Origin: a virus
Length of the DNA: 20,239 nucleotides
Direction: 5' to 3' (one strand)
IMG/VR virus record: IMGVR_UViG_3300045790_000556
Location: 1 to 20,239 of that record
Positions 2,237-15,100 of this stretch are shown one piece after another. Every line of letters starts with the position of its first letter. Position 1 is the first letter of the stretch. The notes beneath the pieces are model-generated. The model did not search any database. It had not been told where the DNA came from and was given only the letters and a program-made list of their open reading frames with translations. Position numbers and translations under genes: made by a program.

Positions 2237-2273
2237 CCGCGTATAAAATAAGGGTTTCAGATTTTTCTGTAGA
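2237..2273 (-). promoter_or_regulatory. Candidate sigma-70-type early promoter
   Basis: On the minus strand TCTACA (-35-like, 2273-2268) and TATTTT (-10-like, 2250-2245) are separated by 17 bases. Together they match 8 of 12 consensus positions. It faces the short early genes and lies in the gene-free stretch where host-type early promoters would be expected. An exact TTGACA at 2296-2291 lies further upstream but lacks a good -10 partner. This is a weak prediction from pattern only. Confidence 0.25.
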
Positions 2274-2292: not shown

Positions 2293-2598
2293 TCAACCTA
2301 CAGATATTCTGAAGACACCTCCAAGTATCATCACGAGTGCCGCTGAGTTAACTACAAGCAACGCTCTGTCATGCCATTTGTACCCTACCCAGGCCCACCC
2401 AGCAGCACCAATAGCTGTCAGAGACATGTCCAGTACCTGGAACCCTCCAGAAGACCTAGCAGCAACACCAATTAACAGGAGACTAGTAGCTACCCACTTG
2501 ATCACCCACGTAGCCCCGTGCCCAGGAGTAACCTTAGTTTTAGAACAGTGGACACCAGTAGAGCCCTGGTTATTATTATTGTTGTTAATGATAATCAT
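2293..2598 (-). CDS. Small multi-span membrane protein downstream of terL (101 aa)
   Basis: After a low-complexity start (MIIINNNNNNQG) and a polar stretch, the protein has about three hydrophobic helices: WVIKWVATSLLLIGVA (about 31-46), a middle helix with SLTAIGAAGWAWVGY, and LLVVNSAALVMILGGV near the end. KWHDRAL links the last two. The pattern resembles small membrane proteins seen in marine phages. I recall similar sequences but cannot name a function. It is the only gene between TerL and the gene-free junction, the place of T7 gp19.5, but it is twice as long and not obviously homologous. The AAAGGA before the ATG is almost touching it, which is a poor spacing, so initiation may be weak or the start may differ. 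Confidence 0.7.
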   Translation of the reverse strand: MIIINNNNNNQGSTGVHCSKTKVTPGHGATWVIKWVATSLLLIGVAARSSGGFQVLDMSLTAIGAAGWAWVGYKWHDRALLVVNSAALVMILGGVFRISVG

Positions 2599-2629: not shown

Positions 2630-2699
2630 CCCTTAGTAAGGGTAACCTTAGGTACAACCGGAGGGGGACAGTTGTGTTAACCTAAGGTTACCCTAAGGG
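2630..2699. repeat. Nested inverted repeat downstream of terL (CCTTAGG cluster)
   Basis: GGGTAACCTTAGG (2640-2652) is a perfect 13-base inverted copy of CCTAAGGTTACCC (2681-2693). It is extended inward by ACAAC (2654-2658) and GTTGT (2671-2675), and outward by CCCTTA (2630-2635) and TAAGGG (2694-2699). Together this could fold into a long interrupted stem-loop of about 24 pairs. The neighbourhood repeats short CCTTTAG, CTAAAG, CCTTAG, CCTAAGG and CCCTAAGGGG motifs. The element occupies the space between TerL and the last late gene, near the presumed genome end. There is no T-run, so it is not a classical terminator. An RNA-processing site or a packaging/replication-end structure fits better. 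Confidence 0.75.
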
Positions 2700-2720: not shown

Positions 2721-2738
2721 CCATACCTTCTAGTATGG
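2721..2738 (-). other. Short hairpin directly after terL
   Basis: CCATAC and GTATGG form a 6-bp stem with a 6-base loop, starting 7 bases after the TerL stop codon. No run of T follows on either strand, so it is not a standard intrinsic terminator. It may protect the mRNA 3' end or pause transcription. Confidence 0.35.
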
Positions 2739-2745
2739 CTGCAAA

Positions 2746-4521
2746 CTAATTCATCCAAACCATGGGCCTGGTATTGTCATGCTGTCTTCTGTTCATCCTT
2801 GGGTTTCTAACAGCATCAGCAAAGTCATCCAGATCAGCCTGTAACGCCTTATCTCGTTCCTCTGTTATACCAAAGGATGCATCTCTGGCCATCTGCTCAA
2901 CCCAGTAGCCCACAGCCATAGACAATGCGTCTAGCCTATCGTCATGCCTGAGGGCTCCTCGTTCGTAAGTCACCCTGGTCATCTGGTAGATCAGTTGTTT
3001 ACTGAGTCTGACAGCTTGGTCGTACTTCTGGGCACTCTGGTAGTCCTCTTCGACTACACCGGGATCAATTACCAGTTTATGTCGGGCTACTACTGGCTCA
3101 AGAGTGTCTATAATTCTCTTCTCTTTCTGCTGACTGTGTCTGACCTCTTCGATCATCACCCTGTGTATCTTGTTCATGACAGGCATCAGCAGCTTGGTAT
3201 ACATCCCGTCACCGAAGTTACTTTCGACAATGACCTCGTTTACCAAGTGCTTTTTAGCTATCTCAGCAAGCCTCTTGAGAGTGTCATCATCATACCCCCC
3301 TTTAAGCCCTCCACAGGCTGTGACAAAGAGATACCCATTGAGCATCTTGACCACTGCATACCCTGTCTCATCTGCGCCTCTACCTGAGGGATCGATGGCC
3401 ATCACCGCACCTGAGTATTCCGACACATGCTCCCTGTCTATGTGCATGGGGGCGTACATGTAGTCCCCGTTCATCGCCGTATTTGGGAGAGTATTCATAC
3501 GTCTGTCTTCATCTGGCCCCCAAGCAATCTTCATGGGAGCCAGGGTTTTGTCACAAGCCATGAATATCAGGTCTCTGACTTTTAGAGGGTATCTCTCAAC
3601 GTCACTAAGCTGCGTATTCAGCATGAACTGTAGACTGAACCCTGCTTTTCCGTAAGACGCCTTTCGTTCCATCAAGTCTTCAATGTCAAACCTGAGGGGA
3701 TCAGTGGGATCACCTGCGTCTACAGGCAGCTCACGTATGAAGTCAGACAGCATACTCCCATACTGATCAGCCTCCTTTGCGCTTGGCTTTAACGCTGGCC
3801 AAATTCTCAGGTCATATCCGCGATCTGCTAACGCCTGATACAAGCTGTCCTCTGTCTGCGGGGTTCCCAGATAGATTATGCGCCCACCAGGTGACAGCAC
3901 AGCATCAAACTCTTTGACCTGTTCAGACAGCTTGTCCCTCATCTGCTGAGTAGCTGAGTTATTAGGCACCTCAACGTCATCTGCAATAATTAGGTCACCG
4001 CGACTGCCTGTAAGCTGCCCTGTGATCCCCACAGATTTCACTGAGGGAGCGTGGGCTGCTCTAGCAGGGCCAACATCAAAAGCAATCTTAGAGCTTCTTT
4101 GTTCTTCTTTAGGCTTTAGGTGCCTCAGGAATGGAACTTCTGATATAAGTCTAAGAGTAAACGTCGAAAACGCATCCGCCCGCTCCTTAGATGCACTAAC
4201 AACGAGTATTTTCGTATCAGGGTCTCTGTAAAGTTGCCAGAGCGTAAATGCGGAGGTAATCCACGATTTACCGACTCCACGAAATGCCTGTACGCAAGAT
4301 CGCTTTGGGCCGTGTTGTAAATAGGATGCAATATTGTACTGTACCGAAGTTGGAGGAGGTAATGTTAAGTGTTTCCATATTAAGAACAGGAATTTTCTAA
4401 AATCATCTGATATGGCGTCTTCAGAGCGTCCCTGAGTGTCCTTAGAGACACTATTGGCTATGGTCGCCTCCGAAACACCCTTGTTGCTCTGTACGGGCTT
4501 CTTAGTGGCTTTATTGGGCAT
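2746..4521 (-). CDS. terL: Terminase large subunit (T7 gp19-like)
   Basis: This is the packaging motor, which drives DNA into the procapsid with ATP and cuts concatemers. At 591 residues it matches T7 gp19 (586). The ATPase domain shows Walker A at 80-87 (FRGVGKSW), Walker B at 177-183 (LIIADDVE, with D181/D182 and E184 as acidic residues) and a coupling motif IIYLGTP at about 216-222. The C-terminal RNase-H-like nuclease shows the metal-binding acids in AIDPSGRGADETGYA (about 370-385), VIVESNFGDG (about 430-440) and DDRLDALSMAVGYW (about 526-540). It follows TerS with an 8-base gap and is the last large late gene. No frameshift is seen. Assignment rests on these motifs plus position, and I am confident. 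Confidence 0.97.
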   Translation of the reverse strand: MPNKATKKPVQSNKGVSEATIANSVSKDTQGRSEDAISDDFRKFLFLIWKHLTLPPPTSVQYNIASYLQHGPKRSCVQAFRGVGKSWITSAFTLWQLYRDPDTKILVVSASKERADAFSTFTLRLISEVPFLRHLKPKEEQRSSKIAFDVGPARAAHAPSVKSVGITGQLTGSRGDLIIADDVEVPNNSATQQMRDKLSEQVKEFDAVLSPGGRIIYLGTPQTEDSLYQALADRGYDLRIWPALKPSAKEADQYGSMLSDFIRELPVDAGDPTDPLRFDIEDLMERKASYGKAGFSLQFMLNTQLSDVERYPLKVRDLIFMACDKTLAPMKIAWGPDEDRRMNTLPNTAMNGDYMYAPMHIDREHVSEYSGAVMAIDPSGRGADETGYAVVKMLNGYLFVTACGGLKGGYDDDTLKRLAEIAKKHLVNEVIVESNFGDGMYTKLLMPVMNKIHRVMIEEVRHSQQKEKRIIDTLEPVVARHKLVIDPGVVEEDYQSAQKYDQAVRLSKQLIYQMTRVTYERGALRHDDRLDALSMAVGYWVEQMARDASFGITEERDKALQADLDDFADAVRNPRMNRRQHDNTRPMVWMN

Positions 4522-5573: not shown

Positions 5574-5923
5574 TATTTTGAATCTCCTTTTATAACTGGG
5601 TGTGAGCCATTGTGCATTTTATTCAGCCGCAAAATTTCTTGAGAATGAGCCTCAATAGTGGTCTCCATTCTTTCTAAAGAACGGTGGAGTTTCTCACGAT
5701 TTTCTGGAGCAAGTATAGTAGCTAATACGTTCACTTTGTTTGCGGAAACTTGAGTTGATATGTTGTTTTTTTCTAAACTGTCAAACAACTCACCAATGTG
5801 TTTTTGCATTTGTTTGGAGTCTTCTTCTAATTCTATGCATTTCTGCCGGGTAACTATGAATGAAGTTATTACGCTTATAAGCATTCCACCAAGTGTGATG
5901 AGCAGTCGTGCGTCTAACTCCAT
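5573..5923 (-). CDS. Membrane-anchored coiled-coil protein, candidate i-spanin-like (116 aa)
   Basis: The start at ATG 5923 comes two bases after the stop of the 106-residue gene. The open frame extends 13 codons more, but those overlap that gene. The protein has one N-terminal transmembrane helix (about 6-24, LLITLGGMLISVITSFIV) and then a long helical, charge-rich region with heptad character (KCIELEEDSKQMQKHIGELF... and NREKLHRSLERMETTIEAHS). This N-in helix with a coiled coil is the architecture of Rz-type inner-membrane spanins and of some accessory lysis proteins. It is next to the holin. No partner lipoprotein is visible, so spanin identity remains unproven. Confidence 0.75.
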   Translation of the reverse strand: MELDARLLITLGGMLISVITSFIVTRQKCIELEEDSKQMQKHIGELFDSLEKNNISTQVSANKVNVLATILAPENREKLHRSLERMETTIEAHSQEILRLNKMHNGSHPVIKGDSK

Positions 5924-5925
5924 TA

Positions 5926-6246
5926 CTAATCCGCCAGCCAAGCTTGTTGTTCTTCGCTCCACGACACGCTTATACCGTTATTGGGATGCGCCACTGGCGG
6001 CGTCCATTGATATGTTTCCGCGTCAAGGCTCCAGCTTGGGTAAAGTTTTGGTTCGTAAAAAACGTCGTTAACGCTGTCATAAGTATGCCCGGCACCAGCA
6101 TAATTTTTTCGGATTGATCCGTCTTCAGATGTCTCAACCCAAGTGCCACCAAAAAAGTTATTGCACCAAGCGGCGTCACGCCCTTCCTCGACAACGACGA
6201 CACGTTCGACAATATTGTTGTCATTTACTTCGGCAAAAAAACTCAT
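5926..6246 (-). CDS. Marine-phage tail-associated protein, unknown (106 aa)
   Basis: It starts MSFFAEVNDNNIVERVVVV and continues through FFGGTWVETSEDG, NYAGAGHTYD, FYEPKLYPSWSLD, YQWTPPVAHP and SWSEEQQAW. I recognise this string of aromatic, proline-rich motifs as a small protein found repeatedly in marine podoviruses and myoviruses next to tail or structural genes. Its function is not known to me. It is coupled to the glycine-rich adhesin gene by TGATG with a GGAG ribosome site 7 bases upstream. It could be a fibre-associated or virion surface protein. It has no signal or membrane segment. Confidence 0.85.
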   Translation of the reverse strand: MSFFAEVNDNNIVERVVVVEEGRDAAWCNNFFGGTWVETSEDGSIRKNYAGAGHTYDSVNDVFYEPKLYPSWSLDAETYQWTPPVAHPNNGISVSWSEEQQAWLAD

Positions 6247-7082
6247 CAGACATCTCCGGTGTTTGTCGATGGATAAAATCTACCAGTGCCAAAAATCACA
6301 CGCACCCCACCGGCAGAGCCAGCGCCACCGGGTGCTGAAAAGGCTCCTTGCGATGCTCCACCACCACCCCCAAATAAGCCGCCGGCACCGCCAGAGCGGT
6401 TGCTAGCAGTCGATGCGCCAGCGGACCCACCTGATCCACCAGCGCCGCCAACCGATGCACTTGTGCCACCAGCCCCGCTTGATCCTTCACCAAGTAATCC
6501 AACACCGCCTCCACCTGGACCTCCAAAGTTAGCACCTGAGTCTCCTCCAGCACCGCCACCACCACCGCCGCCTGACCCGTTTGAGCCGGTTGACGCCCGT
6601 GTCCCCGCCCCGCCAGCGCCCGAGTACCCTCCAGCACCACCGCCGCCAGGAAGCGGCGACCCCGACGAGCCAGCCGCACCACCATTTCCACCACCGTCAC
6701 CCGTTCCTGAACTGCCTCCGGCACCGCCGCTGCTGACATAAGTCCCGCCGTTGGCAACGCAATCCGACGCGAAGCTAGAAGCAGCCCCGTTAGACCCACT
6801 TCCGTTAGCGCCAGCAGCCCCGCCAGCGCCAACAGTTACTGTAATTGAGGCACCGGGTGTGGTGGAAATATTGTTTTTGAATCGAAGTTCACCACCGCCA
6901 CCAGCGCCTCGGGCTGCGCCACTTAGGGCTGATCCTCCCCCGCCCGCGCCGCCGCCGACACAGACAACGCAAACAGTAAGGACATCAGCGGGCACCGTAA
7001 ACGTGCCAGAGGCTGTGAAAACTTGCTGCCCAGCGGGGGCAAATGTACTCATCCCACCAACAGAAATCGGCATCAAACTCAT
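6246..7082 (-). CDS. Glycine-rich tail adhesin-like protein (278 aa)
   Basis: The first 45 residues include QVFTASGTFTVPADV and TVCVVCVGGGAGGGG, the standard opening of phage glycine-rich tail domains. The rest (about 45-258) is dominated by GGxGG, GAGG and SGGAGG repeats. It closes with GVRVIFGTGRFYPSTNTGDV, the typical C-terminal strand and tail of this domain. Such domains probably form polyglycine-II helix bundles, as in the distal adhesins of T-even relatives, and sit at or near the fibre tip to touch the host receptor. It overlaps the preceding gene by ATGA and follows a GAAGG ribosome site. The gene is very GC-rich, and its mirror frames are long but spurious. Confidence 0.88.
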   Translation of the reverse strand: MSLMPISVGGMSTFAPAGQQVFTASGTFTVPADVLTVCVVCVGGGAGGGGSALSGAARGAGGGGELRFKNNISTTPGASITVTVGAGGAAGANGSGSNGAASSFASDCVANGGTYVSSGGAGGSSGTGDGGGNGGAAGSSGSPLPGGGGAGGYSGAGGAGTRASTGSNGSGGGGGGGAGGDSGANFGGPGGGGVGLLGEGSSGAGGTSASVGGAGGSGGSAGASTASNRSGGAGGLFGGGGGASQGAFSAPGGAGSAGGVRVIFGTGRFYPSTNTGDV

Positions 7083-12163: not shown

Positions 12164-15100
12164 TTAGTTTCCTATTAATTCTTTAAAGGCCTCGGGCCGC
12201 TCGCCTCGTCTTGCATCCCGCCCGGCTTTCCTGGTTTTATTAACTTCAATAACAAGCTGTTTTAACGGCTCTGGTGCATCAGAAGATCGCCCTTCTTGCA
12301 TCATTTCGCGTTCCGCAGCATCTCTGTATCGTTTAAAAATTTTAGATAAAACTTTAACTGCCGGGCCATCTTTATGATCTCGAGTGCCCACTGAAAGTCT
12401 TCGATAACTAGGACGATCTATTATTATTTCTAATTGCTGTCTTAGTGTATTTCCACCTAATTTAACCGTACTAATCTTGTCTAAGTAAGTGTCATAGACA
12501 GATGTACCGTCTTCCATAATGACCTGTGAAAAATCTGTAGTGGTCCCCATTGTTTTAGATGGGGGAAGACTAAAGGTTTTTCCAGTAAACCTTGCGATAG
12601 CTGCAAGCTCTTCCAGTACCATGTCTTTTTTGGGGTCTCTTGTAGACGCTGTAAACGGATGGGCTTTTGAAGTCATCCGGAGCAAGGGTTCTCCTAAAGC
12701 GTTCCTTTTAACTGGAGCGCTCTGTCCTCCAATTTCTGCGTTCCAAGCAGAACGGAGGCCATCAAGCATACTTCTTGTTTCACGCATGTAAGGGTCATCA
12801 TTTAATTGATTGATGATGTTAGGGCTGAAACTTTTAACAACACCGGAAGCCACTCGGCCCATTGATCTCTCAGGGCTGATAATTGCACTCATAAAATCAC
12901 TTAGTCCGCGCATGTAAGTTTTGTTAATTGTGTTCTCACTAATTGCAGTGACTAAACCTAAAACCAAATCTCCTACCCTAGTTTCTTCTCCTTGTTTACC
13001 TTCTAGTAAGGCTTCTTTTTGTAATTCAAATAAATCTGCGGCAATCCCCAGGAAGTTAGAAAGCGGCTCATACCGCTGGTACGGGATGTAATTTATTGTA
13101 CCGTCATCTTTCTCTATTCTAATACTGTAAGGACGCCACCCTGTAGCTTGTAATTGTTTTTTTACTTTTGGATCAGATGGTCCTGACCCAGTAATAATTC
13201 CTTGGTAGGCAAGAAACCCCGCAACACCTGTAACAGCGTATCCCGTCATTAGCTTGCCGCGCGCTTGTGCTTTGAGAGAAGGGTCATCACCCATTAAATC
13301 TCTTTTTAGCTTTGTTTGTTTTTGAAACAGATGCACTCCTGGCGCGCGGCGGTATGTCGCCAACAGAAGATTTGTAGGGGTCCTGATAAACGGAAGAATA
13401 AATCTTATTTGTGGGTATTTGATTGCCGCCGTCTGTAGATATGCAAACGCACCGTCAAGCTCTGTCGTGAACGTGGCTTCTCTTGCAACATCCAGTGCTG
13501 CCTTGGAATGTTTATTGAGGGCGGCTCCTGGTTTAGTAGTAGCAACAGCAGCACCTGTTTCAAGATCAAAAGCTTGTTTTGCTTGGACATGCATCCAATC
13601 TTTAAGCCCTTCTTTTGTGAGCTTACCGTCTGCTATTTGTTTTTGACCTTCTACCCATAAATCAGCATGTAGTTTTCCCCTGTATGTCGCTTGCTTAAAG
13701 AATTCATCGGAAAACAACAGAAGCCTCGACGGCAGTGTAGTAGTTAAGTTTGCCCAGTTTTTCCCTTTAGTAGCTGTGCGTTTAAACTCAGCCAATGTTT
13801 CAAAAGATACTTTTTCACCTCCAAAAATACCTGTCATATGCTCGTTTTGTTCAAGTTTTCCAAGCTGATCTAAAACAGTTGTATCTTCTTTAAGAGCTTT
13901 AAATGCCATCTCTATCGCACTGAGCATCGATCCATAAGTGGCTCCTAGCTGCCTAATCCCGCGCATTGCTTCTACTCGGTCTCCCGCCACAACCCCACCA
14001 ACTGCTTGTTCAATTGGCAACAAGTTTAAATTCATAAAGTTAGAGACGGTGTTGATTACCTGTGTGTTAGGGCCTGATAGCATGAAGTTAATGCGTAGAC
14101 TGTTGAGACGGTCCCAGCGAGAACTTAAAGTAGTTGCGCTTGGGATATTCTTGTGTCCACCTTGTTCAGCAGCTTCCCTAACGTCACGCATGTACGACAA
14201 TAGTGCAGATCGTGACCTGCCTGTTTTGGCAATTAACGCATTGTTTAACATGGTGTTTTCTTTATAAACCATTTTCTGTGCGTTCAATGCTCTCGCTACA
14301 GCTTTAACTTGTCCTCTATAAATACCTTCAAGGTTTCCAAATAGCTCAGTCATGCCAGCAACATCTAGTTCAAATTCGTCTCCGCTATCCCATCCAAGTT
14401 CTTTTAATTGGTCGTCAGTGATGCCATTTTCAGCGCGGCGCACATATATCTTAGAAATTTCTGCAAGGTGCTTGGCCATTGTATCTACAAACTGGCCTTT
14501 TGAGCCTAAGTCAGCAGCGAGTTTTGTAAAGTCATTCGGAGATAGCTGAGAAAACCTGTCCAATAATTCTTTTGGGTTGTGCTTGTATATTTTTGCCAAC
14601 GTAACCGCGTAGCCGTTTACTTCCTGCCTTACTGCATCGTGGCTTTTAACAGCACCTCCCGCCATTCTGTCGTACTGGCTTTGAAACGCTTCTCCAACAG
14701 TTATTAAAACATCTTGGATATCATCATTACCGTTCACCTTTCTCAGACTGCGTGAAAATTCAGCCGCTGCTTTAGCTCTTCCTTCACCAAACGTTCCAGC
14801 TGTTGATGACTGAGATGCTGCCGGAACATAGTCTTCTCCTGTCAGGTTCATTCGGATGCCTGAACCTTCAAGAACTTGTTTTACTAAGTTTTGGGTAGCT
14901 GCGAAATACGGGCTTTTAGGGTTTCTCAAACTTTCAGTATAATCTCGCATGTCTTTATTTTCATTGAGATTGCGAGTGTGTTTTTCAGCTGAAGTTTCGG
15001 GAATAAGCTCTCCTTGTCCGTCTGCATCACTTCTATAAGTAATCTCTTCTAGATTAGGATTGTCAGGGATTTCATTTACAGGAGCAGGAGTTGCATCATA

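Follow-up and report, generated by a model that had tools for sequence, protein, structure and literature searches.

The window considered here, i.e. the whole stretch of DNA that was analysed, comes from an uncultured T7-like phage that is known from environmental sequences only; it is a fragment of 20,239 bases, in which the late genes occupy the minus strand. The region of interest lies 3' of terL, the gene of the large terminase, and contains the following features:

2746..4521, minus strand: TerL, T7-type large terminase, 591 aa (phrog_38, E=9.5e-120; PF22530 Terminase-T7_RNaseH-like, E=2.3e-42)
2726..2737, minus strand: CATACTAGAAGG, located as phiOR is and predicted to serve as a promoter for the T7-type RNA polymerase of the phage itself; the motif recurs in the contig of one relative, L004
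2630..2699, minus strand: hairpin, with an outer stem at 2639-2653/2680-2694 (15 bp, perfect) and an inner stem at 2654-2660/2669-2675
2660..2670, minus strand: apical loop with the conserved sequence TGTCCCCCTCC, present once in each record searched, the same loop type in 8/8 members of the clade described below
2293..2598, minus strand: small ORF 3' of the hairpin, 101 aa, DUF6552 (PF20189, E=2.7e-15), probable membrane protein
2257..2266, minus strand: AAAAATCTGA, end/packaging marker, the only copy in the window

Read along transcription, the terL stop is followed by CATACTAGAAGG (2737-2726), the hairpin (2699-2630), the 101-aa ORF (2598-2293) and AAAAATCTGA (2266-2257). The best matches of TerL among isolates are those of the Roseobacter phages CRP-118, CRP-403 and CRP-804 (64-68% amino acid identity), and the hosts of these nearest isolates are marine alpha-proteobacteria. 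The DUF6552 ORF occupies the position that gene 19.5 has in T7, and a similar reading frame can be seen in the sequence of the relative L007. When genome contigs were scanned for a link to a prophage or a host, a distant MAG locus and a short fragment were all that was found. Among the tail genes, the window also encodes a strongly glycine-rich protein of 278 aa (6246-7082, minus strand).

An earlier note on this DNA had described the hairpin as a nest of inverted repeats around perfect 13-base arms, and the arms are as described: GGGTAACCTTAGG (2640-2652) pairs perfectly with CCTAAGGTTACCC (2681-2693), the perfect pairing extending beyond them to 15 bp (2639-2653/2680-2694). The inner ACAAC/GTTGT arms are likewise present, within 7 pairs that include one G-T (2654-2660/2669-2675); the outer CCCTTA/TAAGGG arms also exist, but a second TAAGGG at 2637-2642 competes for the pairing proposed for them. 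The symmetry, which the earlier note had rated as much greater than chance, is confirmed as unusual: this is the sole inverted repeat of at least 13 nt within 120 nt in the whole window, and, when the sequence was shuffled with its dinucleotides preserved, only 3 of 300 shuffles had any inverted repeat with 13 perfect base pairs and a loop not exceeding 60 nt. The plus-strand RNA fold of 2600-2745 has a z of -2.4. An intrinsic terminator is ruled out, since no U-tract lies directly 3' of the stem, where the transcribed strand reads ACCCTTACTAAGGGTTACTTTAG.

For comparison across phages, the clade was defined as the window and seven viral contigs (L003-L009) with TerL 78-89% identical, i.e. eight sequences; TerL searches starting from clade members found no members beyond these seven. 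The earlier note had made its proposal depend on conservation of the stem in close relatives, and a hairpin is indeed found at the same place, 3' of terL, in all seven of them, with many compensatory changes. Its stem is of one sequence type in the window, L003 and L004 and of another in L005 and L006, while the stems of L007, L008 and L009 are longer and unlike both. Double compensatory changes affect 13 of the 26 pairs in alignment A1 (97.4% of cells paired) and 10 of the 14 in alignment A2 (98.6%), these being counts from eight sequences only, in which a change inherited by several members is counted several times. The covariation score is reached by none of 500 shuffles in either alignment, the signal is lost when the partner is shifted by one to three columns, and RNAalifold agrees. 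Furthermore, a covariance model built from L007-L009 alone finds the window (E=0.0024), as well as L003 and L004. Because the stem sequence keeps changing while the pairing and the C-rich loop stay, the element is considered real, and a stem that remains paired although much of its sequence has been replaced, beneath a loop that is constant, speaks strongly for selection.

It could be argued that the hairpin arose by chance or as a by-product of palindromic short repeats of the CCTTAGG type, given that CCTTAGG itself is nearly palindromic and that several copies occur in L003 and L004. However, the stems of L005 and L006 lack such repeats and yet keep the fold and the loop, those of L007-L009 differ again, and the covariation statistics also oppose an explanation that the relatives have already refuted and whose probability is negligible. 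Within the window, the CCTAAGG/CCTTAGG/CCTAAAG motif is not enriched (12 found versus 8.3 expected), and half of the 12 hits are three palindromic copies in or beside the hairpin. The analogy with the CCTAAAG repeats of T7, on which the earlier note had drawn, was dropped as a conserved feature because CCTTAGG-type motifs are not common to all clade members, the stems of L005-L009 reaching the same fold with other sequences. The T7 repeats do lie in the same genome region, and similar heptamers are found in the window, L003 and L004, but they are mostly direct in T7, whereas in the window they form the arms of one hairpin. What is actually conserved is the pairing and the C-rich apical loop; this loop, the phage promoter and the AAAAATCTGA marker had not been mentioned in the earlier note.

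Within the hairpin, conservation is highest in the loop. Its consensus is about (C)TGTCyCCCcTCCGG on differing stems in 8/8 clade members, with the exceptions that L006 is without the final GG and that L008 reads TGTGCGCCCCCCCTCCGG. CCCCTCC is present in all eight loops, and TGTC in seven, L008 having TGTG instead. A search for further copies of the loop in the window and in the records of L003, L004 and L007 found a single one in each. A scan of viral contigs with the loop pattern returned mostly chance matches and, among the matches listed, the fold and the end marker occurred together only in the clade already known from TerL. No Rfam family matches the hairpin.

An invariant C/U-rich loop on stems differing highly in sequence is also the design of the alpha-r14 (NfeR1, ‘cuckoo’) sRNAs of alpha-proteobacteria (PMC10746234), and the hairpin could accordingly be imagined as a trans-acting regulatory RNA, the CCCCCUCC loop of which would pair with Shine-Dalgarno sequences. 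The alpha-proteobacterial hosts of the nearest isolates, the single copy and the predicted promoter of its own would suit such a function. On the other hand, the loop is CCCCCUCC or CUCCCCUCC and not the CCUCCUCCC of alpha-r14, one hairpin is found rather than three, the element lies at the right end of the genome, Rfam gave no match, no terminator follows the hairpin, and no loop-complementary GGAGGGG target was found in the clade loci, which leaves this explanation rather improbable.

The predicted promoter upstream of the hairpin can be evaluated through the L004 contig, in which CATACTAGAA is found at five places on the transcribed strand, with a sixth copy one base off, and in which the exact core lies on that strand at 5854, 8917, 13882, 22829 and 24300. 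The copy at 13882 is just 3' of a gene for a T7-type RNA polymerase (12640-13746), and CATACTAGAA is best read as the predicted promoter of that polymerase. In the same position after terL, phiOR is annotated in T7 and T3, and a putative promoter in gh-1; L005 and L006 have a diverged match only (ATAGAAG). In the window, the hairpin would start about 35 nt into a transcript from CATACTAGAAGG. A generic arrangement of promoter plus RNase III hairpin was rejected for the L004 contig, because a strong hairpin comes after just one of its other predicted promoters and, in that case, looks like a terminator. It is also observed that this contig, with 100,092 bases, is larger than a T7-like genome, that the promoter motif lies on the plus strand of its first 25 kb, and that minus-strand copies of the repeats near 50-51 kb look unrelated, for which reasons it may be chimeric.

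Whether the hairpin acts as RNA or as DNA can be approached through its mismatches, on the premise, which is our own expectation rather than a published definition, that selection for DNA symmetry alone would leave G-T and A-C mismatches equally frequent. In 21 stems downstream of TerL, folded as the transcribed strand with neutral scoring, 27 G-T and 10 A-C mismatches were counted (p=0.004; share expected from the composition of these regions, 0.50), with the limits that related phages do not provide independent stems and that strand-biased mutation could contribute. The absence of strand preference that would characterize a double-stranded DNA palindrome is therefore not what these counts display (G-T 27, A-C 10). 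Since G-T exceeds A-C, folding of the transcribed strand, most simply as RNA, is favoured, and this moderate evidence suggests that the functional form would be a sense-strand RNA hairpin rather than a DNA palindrome.

The position of the hairpin relative to the genome end can be inferred from AAAAATCTGA, which in the T7 record lies 17 nt before the terminal repeat, the annotated terminal repeats of T3 and gh-1 being 17 and 16 nt, respectively, from its start. As this spacing is fixed in the three phages, the terminal repeat of the window would be expected about 17 nt from where the motif starts, which puts its predicted beginning near 2249 (minus strand). The combination of AAAAATCTGA with a C-run, mostly 41-43 nt on, was found in 34 of 105 loci downstream of TerL and in none of the upstream control stretches. 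The window has the properties of a T7-type right end, i.e. the TerL type, the promoter motif after terL, and AAAAATCTGA followed at about 42 nt by a C-run, and the placement between TerL and the (predicted) genome-end junction, which the earlier note had proposed by analogy with T7, holds. Beyond the hairpin, AAAAATCTGA follows after some 370 bp and the predicted terminal repeat after about 380 nt. More generally, the right genome end of T7 (L086 2462-2471), T3, gh-1 and many uncultured T7-like phages is marked by AAAAATCTGA together with a C-run at a distance of about 42 nt, and a variant of AAAAATCTGA is found beyond inserted genes in CRP-118 and CRP-403. In a group of marine loci (L030, L038, L050, L051, L053, L055-L057 and L078), the end marker begins about 9 nt after the TerL match, so that hardly any spacer separates TerL from the predicted terminal repeat and a hairpin is absent there.

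The main rival explanation is DNA end-processing: the palindrome would form a hairpin end on concatemers, as reported for T7, and assist in duplicating the terminal repeat ahead of the terminase cut beside AAAAATCTGA. In T7-like phages, the spacer after TerL often contains a strong hairpin (26 of 106 loci, and also T7, T3 and gh-1), and that of the window is placed, as an inverted repeat serving this purpose would be, between TerL and the predicted terminal repeat. A passage of PMC4281155 reports that, during T7 infection, a hairpin structure was found in DNA containing the terminal repeat, which counts in favour of this explanation, and PMC4925675 cites Chung, Nardone and Hinkle 1990 on the hairpin end. 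However, hairpin and marker are separated by whole ORFs and by a distance that varies from about 130 to 760 nt, whereas the hairpin remains closer to terL and the promoter. Furthermore, the excess of G-T over A-C opposes a DNA palindrome that is symmetric, and it also opposes folding of the opposite strand. The explanation is thus possible but doubtful.

The strand bias is also compatible with a start of single-strand replication, in which the loop would make a primase-type site, TGTC, accessible on the strand that is displaced at a phiOR origin. A TGTC-type site is what primase prefers at T7 origins, and a TGTC loop beside the promoter is found, as in T7 origins, in 7/8 clade members. In L008, however, the tetranucleotide is TGTG, whereas CCCCTCC is kept in 8/8, and a replication function is quite unlikely.

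The conserved covarying stem, the conserved loop, its single copy and its position are plain observations. The element is probably a hairpin of a phage RNA, beside the predicted cut site at the genome end. The explanation tentatively preferred, with a probability of roughly 0.4, is that of a hairpin transcribed in the terminal (phiOR-like) transcript and processed or bound by RNase III, the loop being a recognition site. In the terL message, the hairpin would form on the 3' side; in the transcript from the terminal (phiOR-like) promoter, it would form near the start, before the small membrane-protein ORF and the genome-end site. Host RNase III may cut or bind the long stem, by which late messages would gain a defined, protected end rather than entering the concatemer junction, and the C-rich loop may be the recognition site of a partner, either a phage protein or an RNA. 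RNase III is considered most likely because gh-1 has an annotated putative site in the same spacer and because late messages would otherwise reach the concatemer junction. An RNA hairpin is supported by the covarying stems, the recovery of the window by the L007-L009 model, the mismatch bias, the upstream phage promoter and the gh-1 annotation, and the long, imperfect double-stranded stem typical of RNase III sites is present (15 bp and a further 7 pairs in the window; the stems of L007-L009 are longer). That the perfect stem of the window has only 15 bp counts against RNase III, which, furthermore, needs no conserved loop, so that the invariance of the loop is left unexplained. A more novel reading is that of a structured phage RNA with its own promoter beside the packaging genes, the invariant C-rich loop of which would act in trans on terminase, as an analogue of a packaging RNA, or on Shine-Dalgarno sequences, as an sRNA; this is unlikely, and we know of no packaging RNA in a T7-like phage.

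Hairpins in the spacer between terL and the terminal repeat are already known or annotated in T7-group phages. The closest parallel to a transcribed RNase III hairpin is the ‘R13’ stem-loop of gh-1 (37000-37069 of NC_004665), annotated as a putative RNase III site, which is also a strong hairpin between TerL/phage promoter and terminal repeat in the same direction of transcription, but lies after the small ORF, near the terminal repeat, and has another sequence and a short loop without a C-run. The right end of T7, with its concatemer hairpin end, resembles the window in the AAAAATCTGA marker and in the inverted repeats that lie downstream of gene 19, ahead of the right terminal repeat, but no such C-rich loop was found in T7, and a DNA role of the hairpin in the window would be putative. 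Models R1 and R2 found nothing significant in the outgroup loci or in T7, T3 and gh-1, and the T7 spacer sequences matched the clade models at chance level (E about 0.1-1). Many outgroup loci have unrelated hairpins of their own after terL: those of L010-L013, L023, L211, L212, L228 and L046 are long, imperfect and of unrelated sequence in the same spacer, that of L228 coming shortly before the end marker. T7 (L086 2240-2320) and T3 (L355 2246-2330) share a hairpin after gene 19.5, GGGATTC...CATCCC, which may also be a conserved element.

As far as the tools used here show, a clade-wide covarying hairpin with an invariant loop in the spacer between terL and the terminal repeat is uncatalogued. 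It adds a functional element to a poorly understood stretch of T7-like genomes, in which late transcription, duplication of the terminal repeat and packaging meet, and AAAAATCTGA, at its fixed spacing, lets the genome ends of uncultured T7-like phages be predicted from sequence alone.
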